Shown here: positions 18,571-59,832 of the stretch, piece by piece | How the letters are laid out: each line of letters starts with the position of its first letter | How positions within the stretch are numbered: position 1 is the first letter of the stretch | NCBI RefSeq assembly: GCF_040954835.1 | Contig: NC_090718.1 | Location: forward strand, 11,485,532 to 11,549,531 | Direction: 5' to 3' | DNA from: Lepisosteus oculatus | Lineage: Eukaryota; Chordata; Actinopteri; Semionotiformes; Lepisosteidae | DNA length: 64,000 nt | The notes under the pieces: model-generated | What the model saw: the letters and a program-made list of their open reading frames with translations, nothing else | What the model was told of the DNA's origin: nothing | The model's database searches: none | Program-made: the position numbers and the translations under genes

Positions 18571-18576
18571 CAGTGG

Positions 18577-18631
18577 TATAAGTAGCCCACTGTGCCAGCA
18601 CAGGAGGTATTCGACTGAGACGTCAGGCAGG
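18577..18631 (+). promoter_or_regulatory. Core promoter and short 5' leader of gene A
   Basis: 'gtataagtagccca' places a TATA-like motif at 18,577, 55 bases before the ATG. The block through 'aggaggtattcgactgagac' to the start codon is nearly the same in all four array members, so it is the shared promoter and 5' UTR. The transcription start would lie roughly 25-30 bases after the TATA motif, leaving a very short leader. Confidence 0.7.
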
Positions 18632-21600
18632 ATGGCTCTCGCTGTGACCATGATCCTCTCCACAGTGCTGCTGCTGGTTCCAGCGCTTCTGGTTCAAGCA
18701 GGTAAGACAGTTCTAGCAGGTGCCTCAGCATATATTCATCGGACTATGTACTGTATATGATAACAACCCTGTACAGCTCGTTAATCAAACCAGTAATCAT
18801 CATTCTTTAGTATTATATACAATAATGTTTGTCTTGCTGCATTTTCTTTTGTACCCTCTGAGACAATTATGTTCTGCTGGCAAAAGTAACCATAGTGATA
18901 GTAATTATTTGGTTAAGAAAACACCCTTGCCTTAGTTCTGTCAGACGAGAAGTGAAACAGAGCGTCCGCCCTGTGCTGTATTAAGGTGATATGTGTTGAC
19001 ACAACACTTTTGAGGGAGCATTTTGATTTTTGGAACCAACTGGAGAGTGGACATTGGAATAATAGTAGATAATAACATGGGAATTCAATTTTCCCTCCAT
19101 GAGTTTTCAACTTGTTGTTTTTCTATATATTTCATTATTCTGTTTAAGAATTTTTGTGGTGCCCATCAGTGAAAAATGCAGGACATAAACATGAGAAAAT
19201 GCCAGTTTTAGCCCATGACATCCTGAAATAAAAAAACAGAGAAACATTGAAAGAGTAGGTAATTCCTGATAAAAACGTGAGAGGTTGAAAACGTACAGCT
19301 TTTTTGCAAGACACTAAGAGGAAGGACAGAAAAGATTTGTTTCGCTGCCAGAGGAGAATTGTTTTGCAAAAACAAAAGCAAAGTCTTTTTTTTGAAGTAG
19401 AATACACAGTCCCTAATGGACTCACCATGTTAGCAATTCAGGAATAACTCCTAGCATACTAACACTTAAAAAATGCTGAACAGCCCCTTTACAGATGTCA
19501 GAATTTAATATTTTGTGTAAATACATGTTAAATACATAACCTTCATGATTCACTAATACAACCTACTGTACTGTATATAAGGCATGTTTTAGTCAGTTTC
19601 TAGCATTTAAAGGCTGTGTGTCAGTAACAAAATAGAAACACTTGGCTTACAGATGACTCCCAATGTCCAGATCTATAAAATTCACAATCCTGAAGTGCCT
19701 GCATGAGTCCCCAGGAGTGAGAATAGAGTTGGAAAGACACTCAAGAAGAAAAGCACTTTCATAGTCAGCATCAAGACCCACCCCTTCAATGACTGAATGT
19801 CCTTACTTCCCAGAATCGAGTGAAGCAAGAAGCAAGTGGTCTCCGATTCAGTTGTCAGTGGAGAACGCCATCGAAAGTACCCCTCCACTGATCTTCAAAG
19901 GCTCTGTGCCCTACAGGGGAGTTCTCCTGGGGGCGATGTTGAGAATACAGCAAGAAAACTCAAATTTCAGGTCGGTAATAAGAAAAGAGGCAGTTCAGGA
20001 GTACAATCTAAAATTTAAAGAAACTCAAACCTACATTTACCATGACTTTGAAGCTTCTAAACCAAACTCTTCCATTCTGAAAGAGGCCAATTTCCTGCAC
20101 TGTGAAGTTTCATGGCCTTGTCAAGCAGTATGAATTAACACCAGGAGCTGTCGCTGTGGGCTAATGGCCTGGGCTCAGCTACACAAGGCTGTGTCTGTTT
20201 CTGCAGGTATGAGACCAAGGATGACATCAACTATGGCCCCTACCTGCTACAGAGTAACATACGGATTCTGCTAGCAGACTCCATCAATACGAAACACTTC
20301 CATTCTGAATGAAGCCTAAACCGCACGTCATTTTTCCTACACTCTGAAGTTTCTTGGCTGTGTCAAGAAGTATGAATTAACACTCTTTCTCCAGCTGCCT
20401 GTGTAATTGCCAGAAGCTGTCGCTGTGGGCTAATGGCCTGGGCTCAGCTCACAAGGCTGTGTCTGTTTCTGCAGATTTGAGACCAGGGATGACATCAACT
20501 ACGGCCCCTACCTGGTGAGTGTGAACGGAGTGGCTGGGAACGACACGGCCCACACGTACTGGCAGCTCCTGAGGTACCCCAACATGCCTCTGGACCGGGG
20601 TGAGTCACTGTGAGAATCCCATCACACCCCTGTGGGAGCTGTCAAAGAACCGGAAGAGACAGGCCTGCCACAGCGCTGCACGATCCCTGTCCTTACTGGA
20701 AGACAAGGGAGAGGAGCTCGGCTCAAGGGCTGTGGGAGTCTGGAACAAGCAACACAGCCATGTTGTTAAAGCCACTATCTTGGCTTCTTTCAAGAAATGG
20801 CTGCAGGAGATCTTTGGGTCAATGGTTTGCTAACTACTGGACAGGCTAGATGGACAAAACGACCCCCTGTTGTTTGTAACCTTTCTTCAGTTTTAATTAC
20901 ATTTAATTAAAAGTAATTACCTCACTCCTCCTTCCACTTTGTCTTCCGTTGGACAAACCCTGGCATGGTGAATATGCATCAATGCCAATACAGATACCAG
21001 CTAAAACACAGGACAGTTACTGTTACCCCCATTAACAGGTGATATAATTCAGCTTCATGACACTGGAAGAAACAATTAATTAATGTGAAGTGTTTGACAC
21101 ATAATCTAGGGAATTACATCTCCCCTTGTCCAAAGGACTTCATCCACAGCCCTAGGGAGAGTATGTTCACGTAGGTGTGTTACCATGGGCTGAGAAAGAT
21201 TCTAACCACAAGAACCCAAGACCCACCAGTGAAATTACTGTAATCAAACGAAAATCAGCAATAAATGATCAGTAAATTAATCTGCAGGCATAGCATTCTG
21301 TGTCCTGGATGAGCCCAACACCCAGGAATGAGCAGTGTTTGCTTTCGATTATCAATGTCAAGTTGATTTTAGCCAGACAAACTGGTGCATAGATAGTTCT
21401 CATCACAGATGTGGAAAGTTAGGAAATTACCCTGCTTTGGTTTCCAGCAAAACAGATGACAACATTAGAATTTGCCTGTGACGTAGAGGAATGATGATGC
21501 AAGTCTCCTCACTGTGACAACAGCTATGAAATCCATGCCTTGTGATTTATGTCCAGTTGAGTTCCTGATTTAATTCATACTTCTCCCTGCATCTTGGCTC

Positions 21601-21731
21601 GCTAATCTCTGTGCTTCGATAACTTAATTAAGCACATCTGTTTGTTTACTCACCTTGTCTTTCCAGGAGTTGGGTGCTACATTCCAGGGGAAAACGAGCA
21701 CATCATCCTGAGATTCACAACTTGGGATTAG
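18632..21731 (+). CDS. Gene A: secreted transcobalamin-beta-domain-like protein
   Basis: Four coding exons: 18,632-18,701; 19,814-19,970; 20,475-20,599; 21,667-21,731 (417 nt, 138 residues). All introns are GT-AG with phases 1, 2 and 1. Residues 1-23 are a signal peptide (MALAVTMILSTVLLL...). The rest matches the C-terminal beta domain of transcobalamin and intrinsic factor: a strand-rich start, 'GSVPYRGVLLGAM', then 'YGPYLVSVNGVAGNDTAHTY', 'WQLL', 'PLDRGVGCYI' and 'ENEHIILRF'. Human TCN2 has the same order (WGPYITCIQG..., TYWELL, PLSQGAGSY). The alpha-barrel that makes up most of those proteins is absent, and the start sits right after a TATA promoter, so the short form is real. It is probably secreted; N98-D-T is a glycosylation sequon and C121 is the only cysteine of the mature chain. 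Oddities: an extra partial exon 3 in intron 2, and four more residues near the mature N-terminus than B and C. An AATAAA lies at 21,905. Zebrafish proteins named transcobalamin beta are, from memory, the nearest equivalents. Ligand binding is inference. Confidence 0.85.
20130..20312 (+). repeat. Partial duplicate of intron 2 end plus exon 3 start (gene A)
   Basis: 20,139-20,246 repeats 20,410-20,513: the same 'agctgtcgctgtgggctaat' intron end, the same 'tgtctgtttctgcag' acceptor, and the first 40 bases of exon 3 (from 20,207). The copy departs exactly after CCCTACCTG. Used as an exon it would read on in frame to a TGA at 20,310-20,312, giving a shortened protein that lacks the TYWQLL strand region. 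It is either a decoy or an alternative terminal exon. Confidence 0.7.
20606..20890 (+). repeat. Dispersed repeat in intron 3 of gene A
   Basis: 'gggagctgtcaaagaaccgg', 'gtctggaacaagcaacacag', 'ccatgttgttaaagccacta', 'ttctttcaagaaatggctgc' and 'gttgtttgtaacctttctt' form a common fish interspersed repeat whose class I cannot assign. Shorter versions sit at the same intron position in B (from 26,970) and C (from 31,771), so the insertion predates the duplication of A, B and C. Confidence 0.6.
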
Positions 21732-21910
21732 AGGAGACCACTGGAATAAACTAACTGGGAGTCAGACTTTTCCCCTAAGTCTCTGCTGCAAGATCAGCTC
21801 GCTAGAGATGGAAGCATTTCCTGACAGGGTCTTCCAGGCTGTCCAGCTCTAGAATACAACTTTTATTATCCTGAATGATTTTATGAAACCACTGAAGGTG
21901 TCCCAATAAA

Positions 21911-24442
21911 GTCTAGAATGATTAAAACTCACTGCCATGTCTTGTCTTGGTTGAGATGAATTTCACTCTTCAACCTGAAACACAAGTGTGTTGTTGCTGG
22001 ACTGAACTGGTCAAGCAGTTGTGCTAACAGGTGGACTGCTGCAGAAGTTAGATCTAATGTCCTAATGGCCAGTACACGCGTCATTAAACTTACTGTTATA
22101 GGTATATATTCATAGCAAGTGTAGCATGTGCTGCTTTTGCAATTTGCAGAGTTTTGGACTGTTTATGTTATGTACAGTAGACTGTTTTATTGAACTATTC
22201 ATGTTCTGCCAGCTTTTCCATCCACCCAACCACCCATTTATGCCTGGTCTCGCAAAAAACATAAGATCAACCATCACTAGCTTTCCATTTGCAAAACAAT
22301 ACACGAATGCAAAACAGAATTATTTGTATTGCTGAACAGTAAACGCGTTTCTTGTAAATACCGAAAAGCAAAGCTTCAGCCTTTGCTTAAAATCCAAACA
22401 CAAGTGTCTCCTTAGAAAAATTATATTCCTTTTCTTATAAAAAGGGACACACGTGTTCCTCTCAGGCTCATACACACCCATGCAGAGATCTTTTCTTTCT
22501 AGGCTTTGTGAATAAAGACACTACTGGGGCATCATGGGGAACAAGGCAGAACTACACCATGGATGGGATGCCAATCTGTTGGGAGGTACATGCACACCTG
22601 GACAGTTTAGAGAGGCCTGTTAAAACCAGTGAAAGCCTGCGCTGAAAGTGTTGCTATGGTGCTGCACATGTGCACACACCTTCCTTCCCTATACCCATTA
22701 AGCCAGCCAGCATGTCTTCAGAACACTGGAGGAAAGTGGGGTTACTTAATTATCCCCCCCAGAAGACGTTGATTGGTTTTTCAGTTTGGCAACAATATGT
22801 TTTCGTTACCTGCCATATTCATTCCTGGTCCTTGAAGGCCACAGTCCACTGAGGTAGTTTTTATACTGTATCTTCACGAGTATAAAAATGGTACAAGTGT
22901 TAATCAAGACAGTGGATTCCAATCAAGTCAATGAGAGGCCAAGCTGGAATGAAAACTGAAAGGCTCAGCAGTTGTACAAGACAGCTTTCCCACAGAAAAC
23001 CTAGCCTTAGCTAGTTCACACAGCTATTTCCTTTTCTATCTAGATATAAATCCCTTCCAAACCCAGAGGAGCAGAGTCTAAAAGACATTTTCCTCAAGCA
23101 CACATTTTTCCAGAAACAAGAATATAAAAATAAACTTGCACTTGCACAAAGGAACAAAAGCACCAATCTCTTCTGGCTGGTCAAATCCAAAAGATATCTT
23201 CAATATATCCAAATATGCAATGTATATTCCAGAGGATATCTTCAATCTTCAATTCAGAAGAAATCCAAAAGATATCTTCAAAAATTTTATGGATGGAACT
23301 TGGAAAGAAAGGACAAGAAAAAAGTTCACCTTACAAGGGTGGCTTTATTAACTTTTGTTCTGTTTCAGCTCAAAGGGTTGTACTGTTCCAATTCAAAAAC
23401 AGAAACCCTTAAAAGCCCAAAGAAATGTTTATGATATTTTATGACATAAAATCTCTTGACACAGACAAGGAAGAATTAGAATAATAGGACCTTTGAATGG
23501 ATGTAAGAAGAGCTGGAGAATCCCAATTGAGGTCAAACAGAACAGAAATATTAGACCTAAAGCAGTTTATGCCTTGAAAAAACAGGGAAATGACCTAAAT
23601 ATGAAAAACAAAACATTGTTCAGAACAGCAGTAGTCAGTGATCTCACATTTTAAGGTCCAAGGATTCCAGTAACCTTGAAGAAAGGAAAGGACATGGGTC
23701 AGATTAGCAAGTTATACTGTAGCCATAAAGGTGCAAATGGCAGAAGTATCTCAGGGGAATGGAGACATCCGTCATCCGTTCAACTGTCATCAGTGAGCCA
23801 TTTATCCCTGTGAGGGTCAAAGCAAGAGCTTATTCCAGAAGCACAGGCAGGACTTTGAGCAAATGGCTGCTGTCATCCCTGCTCTGGACTTCAGTCTACT
23901 TCGGACCTCTGCAACCCTGAGACCAAAGGCAATGTATTGGCTTAAGTGCTGGTGGTTTTTCCCATATCGTAAACCACTGAGGGCACCATCACACTGAAAG
24001 GAATATATTCCCCCATGCACTGCTGGCATAGCCTGGATTTGAACCATCCACCTCCCCTCTGCCATGCCGGAGTGCATCCTAGATTTTAAAGGGCGTGCCA
24101 GGAGATGGCACACCAAGTCAATGAGATTAATAACCAGGCTCCTCAGGCGACCACCGGATAACCTGAACAATCCAGATCGAGGAAATGCATCCTGCAGCCC
24201 TGGGCCCAAAAGATGAAATAGCATCCAGACAGGGAAGCTTCTGAGAACAGGCTGGGAAAGATTAAATGGTCCAAGAACAAATATTACACTTTGGAAACTA
24301 AAACGACATTCTAAAGAAGGAGGAGGGAGATTTGAGACTATCAGAGCAAAAACAAAATAGCTTTCTTTGACCAGCTAAATCTGCACTGAAAGCTCAGCCC
24401 TACCCCATTCCTCCTCCCCTAGACCTGTGACAGTAGAGGAAG
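21911..24442. other. Spacer between genes A and B
   Basis: About 2.5 kb without a gene. 22,555-22,650 holds degraded dispersed-repeat phrases ('gatgccaatctgttggga', 'acagtttagagaggcc') that recur in the B-C and C-D spacers. 23,165-23,290 carries three copies of a 'gatatcttcaa' phrase. About 24,000-24,440 resembles the region upstream of C and D ('aaagaaggaggagggagatt', 'agacctgtgacagtagagg'). Confidence 0.55.
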
Positions 24443-24497
24443 TATAAGTAGCCCAGTGAGCCACCACAGGAGGCATTCGATTGAGACGTCAAGCAGG
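24443..24497 (+). promoter_or_regulatory. Core promoter and 5' leader of gene B
   Basis: 'agtataagtagcccagtg' puts the TATA-like motif at 24,443, again 55 bases before the ATG, followed by 'agccaccacaggaggcattc'. The match to A, C and D extends about 30 bases upstream ('agacctgtgacagtagagga'). Confidence 0.7.
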
Positions 24498-27400
24498 ATG
24501 GCTCTCGCTGTGACCATGATCCTCTCCACAGTGCTGCTGCTGGTTCCAGCGCTCCTGGTTCAGCCAGGTAAGACATCCCAGATAGCAGCCCCTGCCAAGC
24601 AGGTGCTTTAGCGTATACTATATTAATCAGACTATGGATATGATAACTACTGTACCCTGTACAGCTCTTTAATCAAACCAGTAATCATCATTCGGTTGTA
24701 ATTACTGCATACATAATCTTGATTTCACACTGCATTTTCTTTTGTGCCCTCTGATAAAATTTGGTTCTGCTGCCAGAACTGCTGTGAAAAAAATCTTAAG
24801 TATCAGTATCAACAGCTTTTTATATGAGCAGTTCTGTGGAACCGCCTTATGAAGGGGTGTGGACTGTTACACTCATTCATTTTCTTACTCTCTTGTTTTT
24901 CTATCTGACTATTTCCTTATCCAATTTAAGAATGCCTTTGTTTTTTGTCCATCAATGGAGTGCAGGTTGCAACACTAAAAAGGTCTTCAGATGAAAACAT
25001 TCCTGAATGCCATTATTAATCACAATTTTCTGAAGTAAAACGCAAGGAAACATTGCAACAATTACAGATAAAAAGAAACTTGAGGATGTTTGCTGAATAT
25101 GTGCAGCTTTTTAAAAAAAAACCCCACAAACTAAGGCTTATTGTGCTGCCACAGGTGCACCGTGCAGGAAGAAGAAACAAAAGTCTAAAATACTTATAAA
25201 GTATTAACAATTGCCTTACCGATGATTTCTAACATCTACATCTAAAAATAAATCACAAACCTGGAGTGCCTGCAAGAGTCCCCAGGAGTGAGAGTAGTGA
25301 CTGATTGTCCTTTTTCCCACAGAATCTAGCGGGTGGTCGCCAATCCTGTTGTCAGTGCGGAACGCTATAGACCAGAAAGCTCCACTGAGCTTCAGAGGAT
25401 CTGTGCCCTACAGGGGCTCTCTTCTTGGGGCGATGTGGAGAATACAACAAGCCAACTCTAATTTCAGGTCAGGACACCATATCGGTGCAGAGTTACTGTA
25501 AGACAGCAGTTAAAAGATTTCTTAACAATAATATAGTCCAGTATCTCAAATGCAATATAGCAGAAACAGTTCCCCTGCAGAATTAGTAAATAATGGCCAG
25601 TCTTTGGTCACGTTGCCCATTTTAGACGAGTACTGTACTATGAAGTGTAAAGGACAGTGTAGAGTACTAAGAAAGTCTCTGGACTCATATTGGTGGGTTG
25701 TGGGTTCAAGTCCCTGTTGGAAACCATCATCAATATCTGCCTCTATGAACTCAGAAAACTTAGGTCTTATGATAACTTGTTGTTTCTCCAGGGTGGAATA
25801 ATGTGCTCCCAGATTGCTTGTCCTAGAAACCAGGAAGAGCCTGAAAAATAAAAATGGTGACAAATGAGCGATAAATTACCTACTGATTATGAAGTGAGAA
25901 TTTAAGTCACATTTAGCACATAAGGTAAATGAGAAACACAATATCAATATTAGTATTATATTCCATCCTGGAGTGTGTGATTCCAAACTAGGCAGTGATA
26001 ATTATATCAGTCAGCTGCTGTACCTTTGGATACAGTAGTTTAGATGCATTGCTCCAGTACACCCTGCTGTAGAAATGGGTTTTGGTCTCAGAAACGGACC
26101 CTCTTTTTTTAGAAAAACCTCCATGATAAAAAAGAGGCAGTTTTGGAGTACAATTTAAATTTTACAGAACTGCAAACCTACATTTACCATGACTTTGAAG
26201 CTTCTATACTGTAGAAACCAAGAGATTCGAGCCTGAAGTGTCCGTTCGTCAAGCCAAGCTTTATTGTATGCATACAAGGAACCACAAGAAGAACCATAGT
26301 AGCTATAGCAGTTATAGTAGCTCAAAGGGGATCTGGCTCTAGACAGCGTATATATACACTTTTCTCTACACCCTCCTCCTCCTGTCTTTGAGGTAGCTTT
26401 CTCAAGAAACTCCAGGACTCAGAAAGCACTTAAAACATTCCTTTCTTATCAGGGAGTTTAGTAGAAACATTCCGTCCCCATCAGGAGGTTAGAACAGAAG
26501 ACAGGAGTTTAGTACAGCGTGGGAAAAGCACCTGTGCTAAAGCAAGTGTGAAGGTTAGAGTTTAGCATGTGAATTCAGCAGGAGTTCACTGCAGCAACCA
26601 CTATATGGGTACAGAGTAACATACGGATTCTGCTAGCAGACTCCATCAATACGAAACACTTCCATTCTGAATGAAGCCTAAACCGCACGTCATTTTTCCT
26701 ACACTCTGAAGTTTCGTGGCTGTGTCAAGAAGTATGAATTAACACTCTTTCTCCAGCTGCCTGTGTAATTGCCAGAAGCTGTCGCTGTGGGCTAATGGCC
26801 TGGGCTCAGCTCACAAGGCTGTGTCTGTTTCTGCAGCTTTGAGACCAGGGATGACATCAACTACGGCCCCTACCTGGTGAGTGTGAACGGAGTGGCTGGG
26901 AACGACACGGCCCACACGTACTGGCAGCTGCTGAGGTACCCCAAGACGCCTCTGGACAGGGGTGAGTCACTGTGAGAATCCCATCACACCCCTGCGGGAG
27001 CTGTCAAAGAACTGGGAGAGACAGGCCTGCCACAGCGCTGCACGATCCCTGTCCTGACTGGAAGACAAGGGAGAGGAGCTCAGCTCAAGGGCTGTGGGAG
27101 TCTGGAACAAGCAACCCAGCCATGTTGTTAAAGCCATAAATGTGTGGTAATAAATAAATCTGTACCCACAGTATTCTGGGTCCTGGATAAGAGCAAAGAC
27201 GTTTTGTGCACTGGTCATTCTCCACCCAAGAATCAGAAATGTTCGCTCTGAATGATCAATGTCAAGTTGATTTCAGTCAGGCAAACTGGTGCACAGATCG
27301 TTCTCATCACAGATGTTGCAAGTTTGGAAATTAATCTGTTTTGGTTTCCAGCAAAACGATTACAAACACTAGAATATGACTGTGATGTACAGGAAAGATG

Positions 27401-27653
27401 ATGCAAGTCTCTAACTGCAACAGCTACTGTATGAAATCCACGCCTTGCGAATTCTGTCCAGCTGAGTTCCTGTTTTAATTCATACTTCTCCCTGCACCTA
27501 GGCTCGCTTGTCTCTGTACTTTGATATAACTTAATTAAGCACATCTGTCTGTTCACTCACTTTGTCTTCCCAGGAGTTGGGTGCTACATTCCAAAGCCAA
27601 ACGAGCACATCATCCTGAACTTCACAACCTGGGACAATCTAAAACGACACTAA
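24498..27653 (+). CDS. Gene B: secreted transcobalamin-beta-domain-like protein
   Basis: Exons 24,498-24,567; 25,323-25,467; 26,837-26,961; 27,574-27,653 (420 nt, 139 residues), with phases 1, 2 and 1 as in A. A signal peptide is followed by 'ESSGWSPILLSVRNAIDQ', 'GSVPYRGSLLGAMWRIQQ', 'FETRDDINYGPYLVSVNG', the sequon N94-D-T, 'TYWQLLRYPKTPLDRGVGCY' and an ending 'HIILNFTTWDNLKRH'. The basic C-terminal extension of about four residues past the TTWD end of A is shared in length with C. The mature chain has one cysteine (C117). All exons are open and all introns are GT-AG, so it looks functional. Intron 2 carries a tRNA-type SINE and a solo LTR-like element. AATAAA lies at 27,817. The family and ligand considerations are as for A. 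It differs from C at only a few residues, implying a young split or gene conversion. Confidence 0.85.
25645..25860 (+). mobile_element. tRNA-derived SINE in intron 2 of gene B
   Basis: 'agtctctggactcatattgg' and 'ggttgtgggttcaagtccc' show a tRNA-like head with a clear B-box. About 120 bases of body follow, ending near 'cctgaaaaataaaaatggtg'. The same insertion is present at the equivalent place in gene C, so it predates the B/C split. Confidence 0.6.
26210..26613 (-). mobile_element. Solo LTR-like fossil in intron 2 of gene B
   Basis: Read on the - strand this block of about 400 bp starts TGTA and ends TACA. It contains a TATA-type motif ('gtgtatatatacgc') and, about 80 bases later, 'aataaagcttggcttgacg' as polyadenylation signal and R/U5-like start. 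That is the internal order of a retroviral-type LTR. No internal coding region is attached and no convincing target-site duplication is visible, so it is a lone, dead LTR. It is absent at the matching place in A and C, so it inserted after B separated from C. Confidence 0.6.
26970..27140 (+). repeat. Dispersed repeat in intron 3 of gene B
   Basis: Shortened version of the intron 3 repeat of gene A ('gggagctgtcaaagaactgg', 'gtctggaacaagcaacccag', 'ccatgttgttaaagccataa'). The 3' half present in A is missing here, as it is in C. Confidence 0.6.
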
Positions 27654-27822
27654 ACTAATTGGGAGGCTGAATGTTCCCTACGTTCCTACTGTGAAACTGA
27701 CTCAAGTCAGACAGAAGAATTTCCTCACAAGGTCTTCCCAGCTGTCCTGCTCTAGTAATAAATCTCTGACTATTCTTTACAATTTTGCTCAAAATCTGAA
27801 CATGTCTAGAAATCCAAATAAA

Positions 27823-28948
27823 CTCTGGTGTGATTAAAACTCACTCCCTTGTCTTATCTTGCTTTCTGAGATGAATTTATTTCTGAAACCTGACGACCAA
27901 GTGGGGTACTGCTGGACTGAGATAGATATTCAATCAATGCATGTGTTACTGGTAAACAGATATAACAAATATGTGTGGGAAGAGCAGCAAATCTTGCTTT
28001 AGCAGTTCTCAGGTTACCTTATACAGATTTACCTTTTTACACCTGTAGTTTTACTGAACTATTCATACTCTTCTACTACAGTACATCATCCATCCACCCC
28101 ACTACCCCTCTTGGCTGGACTACCCCCAAAATAAGATTGTCATTTCAATAGTTTGCCATTTGCCAAAGAAATACATGAATGCAAAATAGAATTAAGGCAG
28201 GGCTACACCATGGTTGGGATGCCAATCTGTTGCAGGGTACATGTACGCTTGGGTAGTTTAGAGACACCTTGTCAAACTTGTAATTGGCCATCATTATACT
28301 CAGCCTTACTCAAAATGAGCACCATACTGTACATCCATCTGTTGTCAGGAAGTCACTTATCCTGATGAGTCACAGCAAGCTAGAGACTATCCCAGAAACA
28401 CAGGGCTGATCTTAGCCTTGGATAGAATGACAGTCCACAAAAATCCTACTGCAACCCCAGATGCTAAAGTCAACCTATTAGCTGTAGTACTGGTATGATT
28501 TCCCATACTGTAAACCACTGAGGGCACCAGCACAATAAAAGGAGAGTGCACTGCAGTCATAGTCTTGTTCTGAACCACCAACCTCACATCTGGAGAGCAG
28601 GTCTTATATCGGTTTAGCAGTTGCTCTACGTGATGCACCAAGTTGCAGATCACAGATAACCAGACCAATCCAGATCTAGGAAATGACAAGAGTATGAACA
28701 CACCATTCGCTCAAAAAGGCTGCCGAGAACAAGCTGGGAAAACACAAAAAACAAGACAGCCCAAGAAGAAAGGTTAGGTTATCAAAACTAAAAAAACATT
28801 CCAAAGAAGGAGGAGGGAGATTGGAGAGCAAGAACAAAATGTCCAGCACAATCAATCCTTTCTGACCAGTTTGACCCATACTAAAAGCTCGGTCACTCTG
28901 TACTCACACCCTCTTCCTCCTCCCCCAGACCTGTGACAGTAGAGGAGG
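27823..28948. other. Spacer between genes B and C
   Basis: No gene. 27,830-28,560 is nearly identical to 32,610-33,350 in the C-D spacer, including 'ctcactcccttgtcttatct' and 'ctgtagttttactgaactat', with only scattered substitutions. 28,200-28,640 consists of degraded dispersed-repeat sequence ('gatgccaatctgttgcaggg', 'gtagtttagagacacc'). Confidence 0.6.
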
Positions 28949-29003
28949 TATAAGTAGCCCAGTGAGCCACCACAGGAGGTATTCGACTGAGACATCAAGC
29001 AGG
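28949..29003 (+). promoter_or_regulatory. Core promoter and 5' leader of gene C
   Basis: 'aggtataagtagcccagtga' places the TATA-like motif at 28,949, 55 bases before the ATG. Upstream 'cctcccccagacctgtgaca' is also shared with B and D. Confidence 0.7.
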
Positions 29004-32000
29004 ATGGCTCTCGCTGTGACCATGATCCTCTCCACAGTGCTGCTGCTGGTTCCAGCGCTCCTGGTTCAGCCAGGTAAGACATCCCAGATACCAGCTCCTG
29101 CCAAGCAAGTGCTTTAGCGTATAGTATATTAATCAGAGTATGGATATGATAACTACTGTACAGCTCTTTAATCAAACCAGTAATCATCATTCGGTTGTAA
29201 TTACTGCATACATAATCTTGATTTCACGCTGCATTTTCTTTTGTGCCCTCTGATAAAATTTGGTTCTGCTGCCAGATTATACCACCTAAATATAATTATT
29301 TGGTTAAGAAAACATTGTTACCTACGTTTTCTCAGAGAAGACAAAAATGAAACAGGGTGGTGTTGCAAACGTATTTACTTAGTTATTTTCATCGATATTA
29401 TTCTTTGTGGCCCTACCTTGTGCCCGTTTCTTGCTGGGATGGGCTCTGGCTCCCCTGCATCCCTGAATTGCAAGAAGTGGTTAGAAAATGGGTGGATGGA
29501 TATTCTTTGTGGCAGGCTGGTCTTTGAGGGGACTCATATGACAGCTGTTTGTAAATACACACAGTGTAATTCTTTCATTATTTGTGGTTGCTCTTTCCAC
29601 ATTCTCACATGAGGGTTAATTACTTGGGATATTAGGTACATAATGGGCTTCACAGTTTTAGCTGGGGGCTGGGTGCTTGAGAGCTGTCTGGGGTGTCTCT
29701 TCTGGGGTGTTCTATGAAGACCTGTAGTATCTGTGAAATAAATCTTAATACTAATCTATACAGTATCAGTATTAAGAGCTTTTTATATGATCAGTTCTGC
29801 GAAACCGCCTTATTAAAGGATTCAATCTGTTACACTCTTATTTTCTTACTCTCTTGTTTTTCTATCTGACTATTTCCTTATCCAATTTAAGAATGCCTTT
29901 GTTTTGTCCATCAATGGAGTGCAGGTTGCAACACTAAAAAGGTCTTCAGATGAAAAAATCCACGAATGCCAGTATTAATCCCCATTTTCTGAAGTAAAAC
30001 GCAGGGAAACATTGCAACAATTACAGATAAAAAAAACTTGAGGCTGTTTGCTGAGTATGTGCAGCTTTTAAAAAAAAACCCACAAACTAACAGGCTTATT
30101 TTGCTGCCACAGGTGCATCGTGCAGGAAGAAGAAACAAAAGTCGATGAAAAGGGGTGTAATCCTTTGCTGCAGAAAACAGTGCACAGTCCCTACTGGACT
30201 CACCTGTAAGACATGTGTTAGCAATTCAGGAAAGGCAAATTAACAGTGACTAACTAACCAGCACATGATGAATGATCTCTGTATACAACTTAATTACTGT
30301 TCTTACTTTTTCTCATAAATAATAAATGCCTAATACAGAATATAATCTTCATGTTTCACTAATACAGCCTGTAAAAGGCATGTTTTAATCGGTGTCTAGC
30401 ACTCAAAAGCTGTGTGTCAGAAAGAAAGTATTAACAATTGCCTTACAGATGATTTCTAACATCTAAATCTAAAAATAAATCACAAACCTGGAGTGCCTGC
30501 AAGAGTCCACAGGAGCGAGAGTAGTGACTGATTGTCCTTTTTCCCCACAGAATCTAGCGGGTGGTCACCAATCCTGTTGTCGGTGCGGAACGCTATAGAC
30601 CAGAAAGCTCCACAGCGCTTCAGAGGATCTGTGCCCTACAGGGGCTCTCTTCTTGGGGCGATGTGGAGAATACAACAAGCCCACTCTAATTTCAGGTCAG
30701 GACACCACATCGGTACAGAGTTACAGACAGCAGTTAAAAGATTTCTTAACAATAATATAGTCCAGTATCTCAAATGCAATATACTGTAGCAGAAACATTC
30801 CCCTGCAGAATTAGTAAATAATGGCCAGCCTTTGGTCATGTTGCCCATTTTAGACGACTGAGACTATGAAGTGTAAAGGACAGTGTAGAGTACTAAGAAA
30901 GTCTCTGGACTCATATTGGTGGGTTGTGGGTTCAAGTCCCTGTTGGAAACCATCATTGATATCTGCCTCTATGAACTCAGAAAACTTAGGTCTTATGATA
31001 ACCTGTTGTTTCTCCAGGGGGGAATAATGTGCTCCCGGATTGCTTGTCCTAGAAACCAGGAAAAGCCTGAAAAATAAAAATGGTGACAAATGAGCGACTG
31101 TGCATGGCTGGAATAAATTACCTACTGATTATGAAGTGAGAATTTTAGTCACATTAAGCACATAAGCTAAATGAGAAAAAATATCAATATTAGTATTATA
31201 CTGTATACCATCCTGGACCGTGTGATTCCAAACTAGGCAGTGATAATTATTTCAGTCAGCTGCTGTACCTTTGGATACAGTAGTTTAGTTGCATTGTTCC
31301 AGTAGACCCTGCTGTAGAAATGGGTTTTGGCCTCAGCAATGGACCCTCTTTTTTAGAAAAACCTCCATGATAAAAAAAAGGCAGTTTTGGAGAACAATTT
31401 TAATTTTACAGAACTGCAAACCTACATCTACCATAACTTTAAAACTTCTATGCGAAACACTTCCATTCTGAATGAAGCCTAAACCGCACGTCATTTTTCC
31501 TACACTCTGAAGTTTCTTGGCTGTGTCAAGAAGTATGAATTAACACTCTTTCTCCAGCTGGCTGTGTAATTGCCAGGAGCTGTCGCTGTGGGCTAATGGC
31601 CTGGGCTCAGCTCACAAGGCTGTGTCTGTTTCTGCAGGTATGAGACCATCGATGACATCAACTACGGCCCCTACCTGGTGAGTGTGAACGGAGTGGCTGG
31701 GAACGACACGGCCCACACGTACTGGCAGCTGCTGACGTACCCCAACATGCCTCTGGACAGGGGTGAGTCACTGTGAGAATCCCATCACACCCCTGTGGGA
31801 GCTGTCAAAGAACCGGGAGAGACAGGCCTGCCACAGCGCTGCACGATCCCTGTCCTTACTGGAAGACAAGGGAGAGGAGCTCAGCTCAAGGCTGTGGGAG
31901 TCTGGAACAAATAACCCAGCCATGTTGTTAAAGCCATAAATGTGTGGTAATAAATAAATCTGTAGCCACAGTATTCTGGGTCCTGGATAAGGGCAAAGAC

Positions 32001-32437
32001 GTTTTGTGCACTGGTCATTCTCCACCCAAGAATCAGAAATGTTCGCTCTGAATGATCGATGTCAAGTTGATTTCAGTCAGGCAAACTGGTGCACAGATCG
32101 TTCTCATCACAAATGTTGCAAGTTTGGAAATTAATCTGTTTTGGTTTCCAGCAAAACAATGACAAACTTAGAATGTGACTGTGATGTAGAGGGAAGATGA
32201 TGCAAGTCTCCATCTGCAACAGCTACTGTATGAAATCCATGCCTTGCAAGTTCCTGTTTTAATTCATGCTTATCCCTGCACCAGGGCTAGCTTGTCTCTG
32301 TGCTTCGATATAACTTAATTAAGCACATCTGTTTGTTTACTCACCTTGTCTTTCCAGGAGTTGGGTGCTACATTCCAGAGGAAAACGAGCACATCATCCT
32401 GAACTTCACAACCTGGGACAATCCAGAAGTACACTAA
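29004..32437 (+). CDS. Gene C: secreted transcobalamin-beta-domain-like protein
   Basis: Exons 29,004-29,073; 30,551-30,695; 31,638-31,762; 32,358-32,437 (420 nt, 139 residues), with the same phases as A and B. Signal peptide as in B, then 'ESSGWSPILLSVRNAIDQ', 'GSVPYRGSLLGAMWRIQQ', 'YETIDDINYGPYLVSVNG', the sequon N94-D-T, 'TYWQLLTYPNMPLDRGVGCY', and an ending 'HIILNFTTWDNPEVH' that is acidic where B is basic. C117 is the only mature cysteine. All exons are open and all splice sites canonical. Intron 1 is longer than in B because of an extra 500-base block (about 29,277-29,760) containing a dispersed-repeat tail ('agtggttagaaaatgggtgg'). AATAAA lies at 32,601. It is probably functional; the role is inferred only from the domain. 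Confidence 0.85.
29400..29510 (+). repeat. Dispersed fish repeat tail in intron 1 of gene C
   Basis: 'gggatgggctctggctcccc' followed by 'tgcaagaagtggttagaaaa' and 'tgggtggatgga' is the usual 3' end of a very common fish interspersed repeat that finishes in GGATGGA units. It is absent from B. Confidence 0.6.
30875..31088 (+). mobile_element. tRNA-derived SINE in intron 2 of gene C
   Basis: Same insertion as in gene B: 'agtctctggactcatattgg' and 'ggttgtgggttcaagtccc', body ending near 'cctgaaaaataaaaatggtg', with only a few differences between the two copies. Confidence 0.6.
31771..31945 (+). repeat. Dispersed repeat in intron 3 of gene C
   Basis: Same shortened repeat as in gene B at the same distance after the exon 3 donor ('gggagctgtcaaagaaccgg', 'ccatgttgttaaagccataa'). 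Confidence 0.6.
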
Positions 32438-32606
32438 ACTAATTGGGAGGCTGAATGTTCACTACGTTCCTACTGTGAAACGGACTCAAGTCAGACAGAA
32501 GAATTTCCTCACAAGGTCTTCCCAGCTGTCCTGCTCTAGTAATAAATCTCTGACTATTCTTCACAATTTTGCTCAAAATCTGAACATGTCTAGAAATCCA
32601 AATAAA

Positions 32607-33752
32607 CTCTGGTGTGATTAAAACTCACTCCCTTGTCTTATCTTGCTTTCTGAGATGAATTTATTTCTGAAACCTGACGACCAAGTGGGGTACTGCTGGA
32701 CTGAGATAGATATTCAATCAATGCATGTGTTACTGGTAAACAGATATAACAAATATGTGTGGGAAGAGCAGCAAATCTTGCTTTAGCAGTTCTCAGGTTA
32801 CCTTATACAGATTTACCTTTTTACACCTGTAGTTTTACTGAACTATTCATACTCTTCTACTACAGTACATCATCCATCCACCCCACTACCCCTCTTGGCT
32901 GGACTACCCCCAAAATAAGATTGTCATTTCAATAGTTTGCCATTTGCCAAAGAAATACATGAATGCAAAATAGAATTAAGGCAGGGCTACACCATGGTTG
33001 GAATGCCAATCTGTTGCAGGGTACATGTACGCTTGGGTAGTTTAGAGACACCTTGTCAAACTTGTAATTGGCCATCATTATACTCAGCCTTACTCAAAAT
33101 GAGCACCATACTGTACATACATCTGTTGTCAGGAAGTCACTTATCCTGATGAGTCACAGCAAGCTAGAGACTATCCCAGAAACACAGGGCTGATCTTAGC
33201 CTTGGATAGAATGACAGTCCACAAAAATCCTACTGCAACCCTAGAGGCCAAAGTCAATCTCTTAGCTGTAGTACTGGTGTGATTTCCCATATTGCAAACC
33301 ACTGAGGGCACCAGCACAATAAAAGGAGAATGCACTGCAGTCATAGTCATGTTCTGAACCACCAACCTCACATCTGGAGAGCAAATCTTATATCAGTTTA
33401 GCAGTTCCTCTAGATGGTGCACCAAGTCCCTGAGATCAAAAACCAGGCACCTCAGGCAAGTAACAGATAACCAGACCAATCCAGATCTAGGAAATGACAA
33501 GAGTATGAACACGCCATTCGCTCAAAAAGGCTGCCGAGAACAAGCTGGGAAAACACGAAAAACAAGACAGCCCAAGAAGAAAGGTTAGGCTATCAAAACT
33601 AAAATAACATTCCAAAGGAGGAGAGAGATGGGAGAGCAAGAACAAAATGTCCAACACAATCCTTTCTGATGAATTAGACCCATACTGAAAGCTCGGTCCC
33701 TCTTTACTTACACCCTCTTCCTCCTCCCCCAGACCTGTAACAGGAGAGGAGG
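32607..33752. other. Spacer between genes C and D
   Basis: No gene. Near-identical to the B-C spacer for about 700 bases and then similar up to the promoter of D. The two spacers therefore come from one recent unit duplication. Confidence 0.6.
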
Positions 33753-33807
33753 TATAAGTAGCCCAGTGTGCCACCACAGGAGCCATTCGATTGAGACGTC
33801 AGGCAGG
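33753..33807 (+). promoter_or_regulatory. Core promoter and 5' leader of copy D
   Basis: 'aggtataagtagcccagtgt' with the TATA-like motif at 33,753, again 55 bases before the ATG. The promoter is kept although the gene behind it looks broken. Confidence 0.65.
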
Positions 33808-35974
33808 ATGGCTCTCCCTGTGACCATGATGCTCTCCACAGTGCTCCTGGTTCAAGCAGGGAAGAGACAACCTGCACCTCGGCATGGGATCCTGGCTCCT
33901 ATCAGAAGGGCTTAACAACACGTGTTAGTCAGGCTACACAAGCGAACAGGTCAGCTCAATCAGGGTGATTCATTGTTTAATATCATTTCTATTTTCCAAG
34001 AGGACATGGGTGATGCTTTGGGTTTGTTGATCAGGCTGGGAGACGCACAATTTTGCAAGTTTCTTTTTTTCTCAATGTGATCCCAAACTGAAACCTCAGG
34101 AGCCTCGCACATCATCCAACCTTTTTTATGGTCTGCCCTGGCAGCACCACTACTATGTTTAAGCTGTCATACCGCAGCGATTTCAACAACAGCTTCACTG
34201 GGCAGTTCCAGGTCAGCATCCCAAAGGGTTCCATTCTGTTTGGGGCCATGAGGAAGATACACTAGCTCAATCAAGACAAGTTCAGGTCAGAGGGATTTTG
34301 TGCTCTTCATGTACTTGTGATCTGCTCAGAACTTACACACCCATCTTCTGCAGCTTTTATACAGCTTCATTGACTTCTGTAGATTTGCACCAAGAGCTTT
34401 GCTAATGCATATCTTTACCATTAGTTTGCCTCAACCTTTTCAGGTCAGAATAAACTGTACTTTTCTACTCTACTATTCCTCTATTTTTCCAAGTGACTTT
34501 TTACCTATACTTAACTAAGGAATGAAATCAATCGAATCAATAACTCAGAGATTGTAGATTGGGCCGAGCATCAATCTACAAAGTACAGTACCAACTTTGA
34601 GAGGTATTGGAAATGTGACCTATAAGTTCCAATATTCTTGCAATTAATGCCTTTCAGTAAAATTATTTGTTCTAGTTGTAGAAAACGGTTTTAAGACATA
34701 CAGTACATCTTTCAGGAGGAAGAGAATCCTAATTTCCAGTCTAAAACCTTTAGCTACCAGACATCTGCAGCAGTGATAAGTTATTCATAAACCATCATAC
34801 GGCATGAATTCAAAACTTCTTACACAGTTAAAAGTCACAAGCCTAAACTCTTTTTGTGTACTGTTTTGAAATTAAACAAACATGCGTCTTACTGCCTAAC
34901 CCATCATGCCGTTACTGTGAGATGAAAACAGTTCTCAAGCATTCAGTCCAGAAACGAGGAAGCAAAAACTAGAGGAAACACTGGGCTATTTTGGTTTTTC
35001 TCAGAATTGCATTAATGTCTGCTACATCTGCTCCTTGCAGTGTGAATAAACCCAGGCCTTCCTTCATTCCCAATCCCACAGACATTCCAGGGTAATCTCA
35101 TCTGATCAGGACAGGATGTGATGGGTTAAGGGGAATAATCACAGCCCCAGATTTCCCTGCATGGCATAAAACAAAGTGAAAAGCTTTCAAGGGTAACTAC
35201 CTTGAAGTAGATCGTCAGAGGTTTATCACTGTGTCCGCCGAAAGCTCTGTAGAAAAGTAGAGACACTACTCTGAGTAACAGACATTCCTTGCTTAGCTGA
35301 TCCCTGCAGATTTGAACCTCTGTACATCACATGACTGTGTGGTTTGGTTATATTCTCTTAATTCAGCTTTCAGTACACTGTGGAAGACTACGGACTCTAC
35401 CTGCAGAGTGTGAACGGATTGCAGGCCAACACATCCAGTCACACCTACTGGGAGCTGCTGAAGGCTCCGAACAAGCCTCTCACTGAGGGTAAGAGAATCA
35501 ACTCCCCAAGTACTGAGGCTTCATCCATCCTTACCAACATGCACACAAACAGTGGAATATCTGGAACATCCAGGAGGACCCTGGAGAGTCTCCACTTTGA
35601 ACAACACCATACACATCCTACAGTACATGCACATCAGAGCACCAGCTCCAACAACCTTTTTTTATTTCATCAGCTCCTACAAATGAGCTTTTAATCAACA
35701 TAGTTTCACCCAGTACTGTGACTTTATCAGTATTATACAAACAAACCATCTGTACACTTGTAATGCTAGCTTAAAACATTTTAAAAGATAGAATGTCATT
35801 TAACACTTGCTTTTCATCTGCTTAGAGGTTTAGGTGGGTAGACGCCTATTTTATATGCGTAATGAATGCTAAAGGATTTGTTCCTATACTGCTATCTCTG
35901 GTTTGGTCTGCGGGAATAGGCTGCTATGTTGTACAAAATAATGACCACATTATTCTGAGGTTCACCTCGTACTA
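33808..35974 (+). pseudogene. Copy D: divergent, probably broken beta-domain gene
   Basis: Exon 1 (33,808-33,859) matches A-C but lacks six codons of the signal peptide, and its donor reads GGAAG where the others have GTAAG. The exon 2 equivalent (about 34,142-34,285) encodes 'LSYRSDFNNSFTGQFQV' and 'SIPKGSILFGAMRKIH', then has an in-frame TAG. The available acceptor (ccctggcag) would not keep the frame from exon 1. Exon 3 (35,367-35,489) is clean: 'YGLYLQSVNGLQANTSSHTY', 'WELLKAPNKPL'. Exon 4 (35,939-35,974) reads 'CYVVQNNDHIILRFTSY' to a stop, but the expected acceptor position has GG. An AG six bases further on would keep the frame with loss of two residues. AATAAA lies at 36,105. Exons 2-4 are far more divergent than exon 1 and the promoter, so D looks like an older paralogue joined to a recently copied promoter and exon 1. 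A functional isoform using other splice sites is not excluded. Confidence 0.7.
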
Positions 35975-36110
35975 ACTCCAGGAAAACCCAGAGGGATGCA
36001 ATACCAGAACTGGCCACAAGAAGCTTTCTCTCATCCTTCTGATGGCTGCTGCACGTGTAGGATTCTCATGACAGTGCCTGTCACGACTTAAAAAACACCC
36101 TTGAAATAAA

Positions 36111-37607
36111 TCGATTAAATGCATTGCAAAGTTTGGACTTTATTCTTCTTCTAAACATCTGACAGAAAACATTCACAGCCAGGCAAATTTAAAAAGAGGA
36201 TCCGTAACAGGGAGACAACTGTGACAAAACACTAAGCACACTATTTAAGCAGATGCAGACCCATCTACCTGGTAGTATGGTTTTGGATAATGGAGGGTCT
36301 GATGTAAAAGGAAGTTGATATTGATACCAAGTGAGTGGAAGTATTGTGAAACAAGTAGAAAAAGGGAGTGCTCACTACAGTATAATATAGGAGGGCTGCC
36401 TACTGTATATATAACCAAGACATTAAGAGGTAATGGAGAAGGGTTTGAATACAGAAAAGGCTTGTTTATGGTCAGTAATAACATCTAACCACATGCCATC
36501 AAAGAAAGCATTTGGCAGGATAGCAAAACAATCTACAGCTGCACCTTTGTTAAGGAATCAAGACCAGATTTGAACACCAAACACAGCAATATTTTTCAAC
36601 CCTGCTACCCCAGTCCATCACAGGAGACTGATGCAGAAAACAGACACATTTTAGTTCTCCCATGGAGGTACAAATAATGTCTTCTATCCCCTATTAAACA
36701 TGCAGATATCCAGAGCTTGGAGAAGAAAAAAAAGCAGCGTCCCACACTGTCCCATGTCTTTACGACATCCCCTGAAGCCCCCAGTAACGGAACGGGATGA
36801 GTCAGTCTTAGGCGGTGCTGGGAAGGGTGCGTCAGTCTTGTAGGGCGAAGGACATCGGACCGACTTAGCCAACCCCCCACCACTCGCTGAGAAATACCGA
36901 GTAATAATGCGATTAGGACCTGAGCTCCTCACACTGCTCGTCTGGAGCAGACGGAGGCAACAGGCGGGCTGAAAGCAGATCCCTAATCCGGTCGAGATCG
37001 GACAGACAAGGCTCCGCTCTCTTCCCTCCCTGGCACGCCAAACCTTCTGCTTCCCAGTCACTTTGGGGCTTCCAGGAGACATGCTTTCATGTCGTGTTCC
37101 ACTTCCGAGGAGTGCTGTGCAAAGACGAAACCCCTCCCCGCTATTCTGTCAGACGAGGTCTTTACATTTCAGCAGCAAACCTGCAAACGTGGTTTCGGAA
37201 GATGCCGCAGTCCTGCGTGAGTCCAGAGCTGTTGACAATCCAGGGGGGTGTTCAGCAAGGTCCAGGACACGTGTCAAGAGTTTTTTTTGTTTTGCTCCCG
37301 CGTCTCCCCCCTGCAGTGCCACAGTGTGATCTCAACTCTATCTCTGCGCGCGGCTCCGGTCTCTCCTCACTCGAGCAGAGACGAGCGGGCCTGCAAGCTG
37401 GTCCTGGCTGCTAAAAAACCACCCAAAAAAAACCCTCTGCTCTTAAAGAGGGGCAACGTGAACCCGAGCCGCTGGAGGAAACTGGTGTCTAGCGAGGAAG
37501 CCCTGGTCGATCCAACTGTCCGCTGTCGTGCTTGATGAGGGTGAAGGTTCTCTGCAATTCCGTCATTAAAAGACACTCTTCCTGGAGGAAGGAGTGAGGC
37601 TCTTGTC
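36111..37607. other. Spacer; 36,680-37,600 is GC-rich and may include the 3' UTR of the sushi gene
   Basis: 36,111-36,670 is AT-rich with nothing recognisable. 36,680-37,607 is GC- and CpG-richer, and open frames overlap on both strands as expected from base composition. It lies directly downstream of the stop codon of the - strand sushi gene, so part is probably its 3' UTR; I found no clear polyadenylation signal to mark the end. Confidence 0.4.
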
Positions 37608-40135
37608 TTAACCAGACAAAGCTAGGGGAGAGAAAGACAGTGTTGATTTTTGCAGAAAACAAAGGGGGGTGGGGGAGACAGCTTCTGCCTGATGGTAGTT
37701 CATTACATCAATGGCTTTAAGACGGAAGCTTGACATGAGCCCATGTGAATTCAAACTACTGTACAACAGATAAACTCCAGGTACCTACAACAAAGGTCTC
37801 CTTTCTTATATATCCGCCATACCGACAAAATGAGGCAGCTTTGTGGTTAAGACCAGGAGTAAATCAGATTTTTCTGATCAAACATCGCTGTGTGGGAAAA
37901 GATTAATGTGGTATACCGAGGTGAAAGGCAGCATGAAATGACAGGTAAACCATGGAAGAACACAGGAAGGTAACCAGACGGACCCTAGAAAGCCATGGAG
38001 AGCAAACCAATCGGATCATAAAATTAATACCACTTAATGCCATGACGTGCAAGTTTACACAGTTGTTTTCCAACCATAACGTCTTTCTCCAAGCAAGGGG
38101 CGCGAGGCAGAATACACCCTAGATGGGTTAGCAGTCTGGCACAGGACACACACACACACCAAGGCCAGTTTTCCCAGAAGCCAATTAACCCACCAGTATG
38201 TCTCTCGGTTGTGGGAGTAAACTGGAGCACCCACAGAAACGCGGGGAGAACATGCAAACTCCACACAGACAGCACCCCGGGTCCAGGGCTGAACCCAGGT
38301 CCGCAGCACTGGGAGGCAGCCATGCCCACGACCGCGCCCCCTCCCAGTTCTATGGGTCAAGGGTAATGGCTCCGGCTGCCTCAGATGTCTGTGCAACGCG
38401 GAAGCCGGGGCGCGAGCCGTCTGGGTCCGGGGCAGGCGGGGTCTGGCTGGCTCACCACAGGGCGTGAAGCAGTCGCACTCGCAGTAGTCGCAGCGCACGA
38501 ACCAGCGCTTCCAGCCCGACTGCTTGGTGACGCAGTTGTCGATCTTGACGCAGCCGTGGTGGAGCGGGCCGAGGTGCGTCTTGGCCGAGCAGGTGGAGGA
38601 GCAGCTGCCGTCGATGTCCTTCTCGTTGATCTCCAGCCGCCCCCGGAGACAGACCCCTGCGGGAAGAGGGAGCAGAATGGCCACAGTGCCAAAAGGGGGG
38701 CCGGGGGGGGGGGGGGGGGGAGAGCGAGAGGATGGGGTAACAGGCTTGTGGGTGTCTGAAAGAAAGGCCAGGGCACAGGGACACCTTGAAAGTACATATC
38801 CTGCTGTGTTGGGCCATGTCTGTTTAATAACAATGTTTTAATAAAAGTCAAACCCCGACTTTCCCATATTGAAAAACGTTTTTCTAGCTGCAAACGTTAG
38901 AATGTAGGTTTATGAACGTGACCTACTGGTAGAGCTGCTGGCGAGTTATCTCTGTGTTGAAAAGAAAAAACAAACAGTTAGGCTAGACAAGCATGAATTT
39001 CGAAGCTCAGGAGGTAGAAACAGTGCGGTCACCATGGCGACCGTGCGCTAGGCCTCTGCGAGCAGTGGGCCCAGTTGTTGCCACTCACGCATGCAAGCTG
39101 GCTTGGGGGTCCACTTCCCGTCCGACTGGCAGGCGCGGGCAGGGTCTCCGACCAGCAGGAACCCGGGCCGGCAGGCGTACCTCACCACGGAACCCACCCA
39201 CCAGTCGTTCCCGAACACCAGCGCGTTGAAGTCGGCGTCGGGTTTCCCACAGTTCACTGGGGGGTGGGGAGTGCAAGTATAGCAGTCACAAGAACACAAC
39301 AGCCTCTTCTCCGTTCTTCCTAATATATTGTTTCGATGAACTGCTTTATCATGGAACTACAAAACAAAAAAAACCTTTACAGGAGCCTCCTTGCAATAGA
39401 TCACAGCAAAAGTACAAGTCTGATTTAAAGTACAGTGAACTGGTCAAGAGGTTTTTAGAAAACGACTCAATTGTCAGCCTCCTGTGAAAAGTCATAAATA
39501 ACACACACACACACGATGAATTCATCTATTTACCTCACTGAACCTTAAAGCACTACTAAGCACTGGGACCTTGGCAAGAACACATACAGTTGCAACTCTA
39601 CTGCAGGAGTGAATTCTACATGACAGGTGAAGCACTGCAGGGTTGGGGTGAGGATGAGGGTCAGTGCGTCACTCTTTTACCTCGGCACAGGGACTTGGAC
39701 CCCAGCCAGCAGCAGCTGCCGTCCCCGCAGCGGTCTCTCTTCAGCTCCTTGTGCTTCCCCCGGCAGCCCCCCAGGCACAGGGGGGCTGTGCCCGACCAGT
39801 AGGTGTCGGGCTCCAACAGCGCCAGGCCTGCAGATCGCAGAGCAGGGCGTCAACATGGACGGCGGAGCTCACCAGTCCGTACAGGGCAGCCAGCAGGGCG
39901 CCTTTCCAGAATAGAGAGATGAATCACAATAGTTTTGCACTAAAACGGATCACCGAAATGAGAAAACCTCCGGGTTTTCAGCTCTAAAAATCACATACTT
40001 TTTTTAATCCCAAAAACAAGAGGCTCCTGCCTTACCGCTGCTCCCTTCCTCCTCCTCCTCTGCCTCCTGCGCTGGCACCTGTACGAACACCCCCGGAAAG
40101 GACCCCAGCAGCAGCAGGAGTGGCCCCATCCTCAT
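37608..40135 (-). CDS. Small secreted cysteine-rich protein with one sushi domain
   Basis: Five coding exons: 40,135-40,036; 39,827-39,681; 39,256-39,089; 38,656-38,456; 37,621-37,608 (630 nt, 209 residues). All introns are GT-AG in phase 1. Order: a signal peptide (MRMGPLLLLLGSFPG...); an acidic linker (QEAEEEEGSSG); a cysteine-rich segment 'YWSGTAPLCLGGCRGKHKE' to 'CGDGSCCWLGSKSLC'; one complement-control (sushi) module from 'VNCGKPDADFNALVF' through 'GNDWWVGSVVRYACRPGFLL' to 'CQSDGKWTPKPAC'; then a second cysteine-rich segment with 'LEINEKDIDGSCSSTC', 'GCVKIDNC' and 'GWKRWFVRCDYCECDC'. The final exon adds only ALSG and a stop. There is no membrane segment, so it should be extracellular. 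I do not recognise the gene. The two flanking cysteine clusters around one sushi module suggest a matrix or ligand-binding factor, but function is unknown. The tiny last exon is inferred from splice signals and phase. Confidence 0.75.
38060..38335 (-). repeat. Dispersed fish repeat in intron 4 of the sushi gene
   Basis: 'gcagaatacaccctagatgg', 'ccaattaacccaccagtatg', 'tcggttgtgggagtaaactg', 'gggagaacatgcaaactcca' and 'gggctgaacccaggtc' give the same phrase order as the fragment at 1.93-2.25 kb, and this copy is better preserved. Class not assigned. Confidence 0.7.
38703..38720 (+). repeat. Poly-G tract, 18 bases
   Basis: An uninterrupted run of G on the + strand, preceded by another G run (38,695-38,700). 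It lies about 50 bases upstream of the acceptor of exon 4 of the sushi gene, where it reads as a long poly-C in the transcript. Its exact length could be an assembly uncertainty. Confidence 0.85.
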
Positions 40136-43070: not shown

Positions 43071-43074
43071 TATA

Positions 43075-43255
43075 TTTACTGGGCCGATGCCAACTTACAT
43101 TTGTCATCATTTATACAGCTGGGTATGTTCCTGGAGCAATCTGGGTGAAGGATCTCGCTCAAGGATACAACAGCAGTGTCTCACCTGGGATTTGAACCCA
43201 CCACCTTGAGTCCTAACTGTTCAACACTGCAACACCACTTCCCTAACTACTTCCA
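43075..43255 (-). mobile_element. tRNA-derived SINE, reverse orientation
   Basis: On the - strand the element reads 'gtggtgttgcagtgttgaac', then a B-box-like 'ggtgggttcaaatcccaggt', then 'tgagcgagatccttcaccca' and 'gattgctccaggaacatacc'. This is the widespread fish tRNA-head SINE with its conserved body, and it is moderately decayed. Confidence 0.7.

Positions 43256-54092: not shown

Positions 54093-59832
<5,740 letters not shown>

Follow-up and report, generated by a model that had tools for sequence, protein, structure and literature searches.

Introduction

The question raised by this locus is whether one half of a vitamin B12 carrier can be maintained as a secreted protein in its own right. 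In the present study, we analysed a window of 64,000 nucleotides from Lepisosteus oculatus (assembly GCF_040954835.1, contig NC_090718.1, positions 11,485,532 to 11,549,531 of the forward strand; coordinates below are counted from its first letter). On the plus strand it holds a tandem array, at 18577-36110, of genes for the lone beta domain of the transcobalamin and intrinsic factor family. Human TCN2, CBLIF (intrinsic factor, IF) and TCN1 have an alpha barrel before the beta domain, whereas the window proteins lack it. We consider it probable, at about 85%, that the array arose by tandem expansion within the known fish family of beta-domain-only transcobalamins (tcnb, TCNL), in which lone beta domains carry cobalamin or another corrinoid. 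This family has already been described in zebrafish and other fish, and the array is a new example of it, not a new kind of thing. Carriers of this type show that half of a vitamin B12 carrier can suffice, and three close intact copies, of which one is basic and the others are acidic, would be convenient material for studying the substitute for the barrel and the receptor that takes up the complex.

Results

The array consists of four repeat units with spacings of 5866, 4506 and 4804 bases, and the repetition is far above chance expectation. Three units are intact genes, here called g1, g2 and g3, whose joined exons give 417, 420 and 420 coding bases, stop codon included (Table 1). They share one exon order, in which a 70-base leader exon is followed by exons of 145-157, 125 and 65-80 bases; coding exons are open in 12 of 12 cases and introns have GT-AG ends in nine of nine. 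Exon-to-exon comparison between copies by tblastn gave expectation values (E) down to 3e-26, for exon 2 of g2 against g3. A TATAAG lies 55 bases upstream of the ATG in all four copies and an AATAAA lies downstream of each; both are consensus matches only, and at this level they agree with the original prediction that every copy has its own TATA promoter and poly(A) signal. That prediction had also counted four adjacent plus-strand genes. Four copies in this orientation are indeed present, but only three are intact genes and the fourth is a probable pseudogene.

The proteins of g1-g3 consist of a hydrophobic leader (MALAVTMILSTVLLLVPALLVQ, read from the sequence without a predictor) and a single beta domain, and no domain besides this one was detected in them. 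Given an assumed leader cleavage point, the mature chain has 115-117 residues. An N-D-T glycosylation motif is common to the three proteins.

Homology was assessed with phmmer against solved structures, a comparison that covered g1 and g3. The g1 protein matched the beta domain of human TCN2 (PDB 5NO0) at E 1.7e-10, IF (3KQ4/2PMV) at 3.1e-09 and TCN1 (4KKI) at 7.3e-08; altogether, nine carrier sequences fell between 1.7e-10 and 3.5e-07, and the other three listed hits had E of at least 0.66. The same nine carriers were matched by g3, from 4.6e-09 for TCN2 to 2.5e-05, with IF at 2e-08, and nothing else appeared up to E = 1. Membership in the transcobalamin and intrinsic factor family is thereby upheld, and the gene anatomy together with these matches bears out a tandem array of stand-alone beta domains, each with a leader. 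The check that had been proposed, a profile search with Pfam DUF4430 (PF14478), gave a weak result. This profile covers the same domain region and all three proteins scored under its curated cut-off of 23.8 bits; the sub-threshold match of g2 had E 0.0016 and spanned profile positions 4-71 of 72. The case for homology is therefore built on the matches to solved TCN2, IF and TCN1. A chance match was considered and ruled out by the carrier E values of g1 and g3 and by the four-exon anatomy common to g1-g3.

Alignment with the carriers also places some residues of interest. The window proteins read YGPY, with the first Tyr placed opposite the Trp of IF and the second opposite the Tyr of TCN2; copy 4 reads Y-G-L-Y here. 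In haptocorrin, the bulky aromatic contacts of the ligand are Trp359 and Tyr362, of which TCN2 retains the Tyr and IF the Trp, according to PMC4350170. Judged through the IF and TCN2 alignments, the two aromatics of YGPY would match the two bulky contacts that haptocorrin combines. Each protein has one Cys (residue 121 in g1, 117 in g2 and 117 in g3) in a G-V/I-G-C-Y motif, which is also found in the exon 4 relic of copy 4, whereas TCN2 and IF have an Asp at this place in a G-I/V-A-D-Y motif. If the proteins are secreted, an unpaired Cys of this kind would point to a disulphide dimer or to a role as thiol ligand.

Nine of nine plus-strand translations of the gaps 14500-18631, 21732-24497 and 27654-29003 were free of alpha-barrel hits, and the scan returned a single weak unrelated line (E 0.076). 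These translations had X at stops and the scan had no barrel control; the same form of scan detected a single sushi exon. The gap before copy 4 is 96% identical to the gap before g3, where identities between copies, here and below, count aligned bases only and exclude large gaps. Upstream of the domain exons, the gene content is the 70-base leader exon only, and the array genes do not show the two-domain architecture, barrel joined to beta domain, of TCN1, TCN2 and CBLIF. Pfam scans outside the array found no family in six of six translations of 1-9000 on both strands, and nothing besides a sushi exon on the minus strand of 36000-45000. Within the three plus-strand gaps scanned for a barrel, the result agrees with the earlier statement that none is encoded anywhere in the window. 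We also considered that the copies are exons of an upstream two-domain gene, and rejected this because every copy starts with a leader exon and a TATA match of its own and the scanned plus-strand gaps gave no barrel hit.

The ratio of nonsynonymous to synonymous rates (dN/dS) over the whole coding sequence is about 0.42 for g1 against g2 and 0.38 for g1 against g3. Positive selection between g2 and g3 was examined and rejected: p was 0.18 when silent sites served as the reference and 0.56 with introns 2 and 3 in that role (0.26 and 0.22 for the mature part). The calculated isoelectric point (pI) is basic for g2 and acidic for g1 and g3. In the mature chain, the number of lysines and arginines less that of aspartates and glutamates is +3 in g2 and -4 in g3, at 95% coding identity. 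A simple neutral simulation seldom produced a gap of 7 charges (fractions of 0.0018 and 0.0042 in two sets of 20000 runs); since the gap was noticed before it was tested, it is a hint only.

Table 1. Coordinates of the array copies and of neighbouring features in the window
Feature	Position	Strand	Details
g1	18577..21910	+	TATA 18577; poly(A) signal 21905; 138 amino acids; calculated pI 5.3
g1 coding exons	18632-18701, 19814-19970, 20475-20599, 21667-21731	+	
Extra partial exon 3 copy within g1 intron 2	20205..20258	+	second tblastn match; repeat family
g2	24443..27822	+	TATA 24443; poly(A) signal 27817; 139 amino acids; calculated pI 9.2
g2 coding exons	24498-24567, 25323-25467, 26837-26961, 27574-27653	+	
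g3	28949..32606	+	TATA 28949; poly(A) signal 32601; 139 amino acids; calculated pI 5.4
g3 coding exons	29004-29073, 30551-30695, 31638-31762, 32358-32437	+	
Copy 4, probable pseudogene	33753..36110	+	TATA 33753; AATAAA 36105; exon 1 from 33808, donor lost
Copy 4 relics	exon 2 ~34164-34292; exon 3 from 35367; exon 4 from 35914	+	exon 2 weak, with in-frame stop
Sushi-domain exon of another gene	39048..39356	-	Pfam Sushi 7.8e-11
C2H2 zinc-finger exons	47199..48280	-	zf-C2H2_4 28.5 bits (cut-off 27) in 47199-47504; below cut-off in 47726-48280
DPAGT1 exons	56640..58537	-	58268-58537 matches solved DPAGT1, E 1.1e-40

Discussion

Among fish, carriers reduced to the beta domain have been known for some years. 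The zebrafish proteins Tcnba and Tcnbb were reportedly described by Benoit et al. (2018, J Biol Chem 293:17606), whose abstract is said to describe strong conservation of this class among ray-finned fishes. Tcnba and Tcnbb have no alpha domain, as is the case for the window proteins, and are named as cobalamin transport proteins (PMC9730659, which cites Benoit et al.); for these beta-only proteins of zebrafish, a high affinity for cobalamin is reported, close to that of Tcn2. Short teleost proteins with DUF4430 only had been pointed out in 2014, where phylogeny and synteny left their origin unsettled (PMC4350170). In icefish, a TCNL without the barrel is the highest-expressed gill gene, and its orthologues are said to occur in all Eupercaria (PMC7918649). 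It has a signal peptide and the C-terminal domain only (the retained domain is called 'alpha' in that paper), comparable with the hydrophobic leader and lone domain of the window proteins, and the window differs in holding an array of copies. In the literature searched, judged by title or abstract and by passages in part, we recognised no published tandem array of such genes.

On this background, each intact gene would give a protein of about 13 kDa that is secreted and may hold cobalamin or another corrinoid in its one beta domain, with no alpha barrel involved. It would probably act at an epithelial surface or in plasma, and the captured corrinoid would be handed to an uptake receptor. Cobalamin binding by g1-g3 is expected by analogy with the zebrafish relatives and with the human transcobalamin beta domain alone, which binds cyanocobalamin in crystals, rotated by about 9 degrees (PMC5599065); likewise, secretion, tissue and transport role are those predicted for such a protein. 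The dN/dS of about 0.4 between g1 and the other two genes is counted in favour of this fish carrier family, and so is location: tcnl adjoins abcg4 in wrasse, zebrafish, platyfish and tetraodon (PMC5840709), and the window holds DPAGT1. Weak corrinoid binding, a barrel acting in trans and some other secreted role, all offered by the original prediction, no longer lead because the fish beta-only family is reported to bind cobalamin with high affinity.

Several points weigh against this assignment. In this species it is drawn from genomic sequence, and the DUF4430 scores of g1, g2 and g3 (16, 19.3 and 17.7 bits) are below cut-off in all three. The differences between g2 and g3 comprise 17 nonsynonymous and 2 synonymous changes, which reveal no constraint between the two and fit neutral evolution (p = 0.18). 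Compared with Tcnba and Tcnbb, the window has three intact copies and one broken copy in one array, and what ties it to them is architecture rather than alignment. The passages on wrasse tcnl (PMC5840709) leave its domain make-up, and with it the presence of a barrel, unstated. No ABCG4-type motifs were found in six frames of the window.

The same proteins could instead be corrinoid scavengers at skin, gill or gut, which deny B12 to microbes or remove analogues in the manner of haptocorrin; we regard this as possible, though on balance unlikely. It would suit the enrichment of zebrafish tcnbb in skin periderm (PMC6778804) and of tcnba in anterior best4+ gut cells (PMC12724568, preprint), but expression at a surface fits uptake equally well, and the zebrafish proteins are described as transport proteins. 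The two putative aromatic contacts of YGPY recall haptocorrin, which accepts analogues, and the strong charge contrast between copies, +3 in g2 against -4 in g3, points in the same direction. That contrast also enters a further proposal, a diversifying set, to which we give little credence: g2, which is basic, and the acidic pair g1 and g3 would bind one class of corrinoid but associate with different surfaces or receptors, and the lone Cys would couple one beta domain to another, so that the dimer encloses a single cobalamin and stands in for the barrel.

That the proteins are half-carriers, able to enclose cobalamin only together with a barrel protein acting in trans, seems very improbable to us. 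Separate alpha and beta domains of human transcobalamin do assemble on cobalamin, and they bind it less tightly than the whole protein (PMC5599065), but the affinity reported for the zebrafish beta-only proteins is close to that of Tcn2, and the scanned plus-strand gaps gave no barrel hit, though a Tcn2 may lie elsewhere in the genome. It is also rather unlikely that the array is decaying, with some copies besides copy 4 out of use. Copy 4 is broken, and the divergence of g2 from g3 in the mature part (dN 0.067, dS 0.026) is no lower than that of the introns, where 69 of 1511 aligned bases differ. Against this stand the open coding exons, intact intron ends and TATA and poly(A) matches of g1-g3, as well as the low dN/dS of g1 against both g2 and g3.

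For the preferred reading, an expansion of the fish beta-only family, the copies also suggest a history, in which unequal crossing-over took place, exon 3 was homogenised between copies and copy 4 decayed. The introns of g2 and g3 are 93-96% identical and the 600 bases downstream of the stop 99.3%, but the 600 bases upstream of the ATG only 70%. The stretch from the g2 stop to the g3 ATG is 96% identical to that from the g3 stop to the ATG of copy 4 (1294 of 1343 aligned bases). Because the bodies of g2 and g3 are alike, their upstream regions differ and the intergenic stretches are 96% identical, we infer that g2 and copy 4 underwent unequal crossing-over close to the gene start, which would have left g3 with an upstream region from copy 4 and a gene body from g2. 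Between g1 and g2, identity by blocks is 94-100% from the end of intron 2 through exon 3 into the first part of intron 3, whereas it is 79% for exon 2 and 85% for exon 4; this difference argues for a probable gene conversion over exon 3. The unequal crossing-over, the exon 3 conversion and the single basic paralogue may be new details for this family.

Copy 4 retains the array promoter and exon 1, whose donor is GG instead of GT. Its usual exon 4 acceptor is also GG, but an AG 6 bases further would preserve the frame, so the acceptor lesion alone is not decisive. Compared with the other three copies by tblastn, exon 2 is a weak match (32-41% identity, E 0.30-0.71), exon 3 has 45-49% identity (E about 1e-10) and exon 4 has 52-60% (E about 1e-5). 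From its sequence, copy 4 is an older paralogue that has most likely become a pseudogene.

Intron 2 of g2 contains a segment, some 450 bases long as judged by eye, at about 26208-26655; it starts near TGTAGAAACC and is missing at the matching place in g3. Its last part also occurs in g1, beside the partial exon 3. It may be a solo long terminal repeat or a similar insertion.

Genomic neighbourhood

Ten neighbouring open reading frames were scanned, four of which gave no family and one a weak unrelated line only. The PDB name of the DPAGT1 match is dolichyl-phosphate GlcNAc-phosphotransferase, and Glycos_transf_4 is above its cut-off in 58268-58537 and below it in 56640-56930. The C2H2 exons presumably belong to HINFP. 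Human DPAGT1, HINFP and ABCG4 are near neighbours. As DPAGT1 and probably HINFP lie in the window, and the human order is DPAGT1-HINFP-ABCG4, the array may occupy the chromosomal place of tcnl. The neighbourhood is thus possibly shared with the fish tcnl of PMC5840709, with DPAGT1 and a C2H2 gene in the window and ABCG4 not seen there.

Two matches resembling 5S rRNA were found at 3224-3343 (plus strand, 52.7 bits) and 7695-7813 (minus strand, 43.2 bits), above the gathering score of 38; they are possibly 5S-derived short interspersed elements or dispersed 5S copies. The stretch 16560-16790, around CACACACCAGCTATTAGTGGGGAGGACAGCAGAGTGATGAAGCC, looks like a dispersed repeat, which may be similar to repeats of non-teleost ray-finned fishes.

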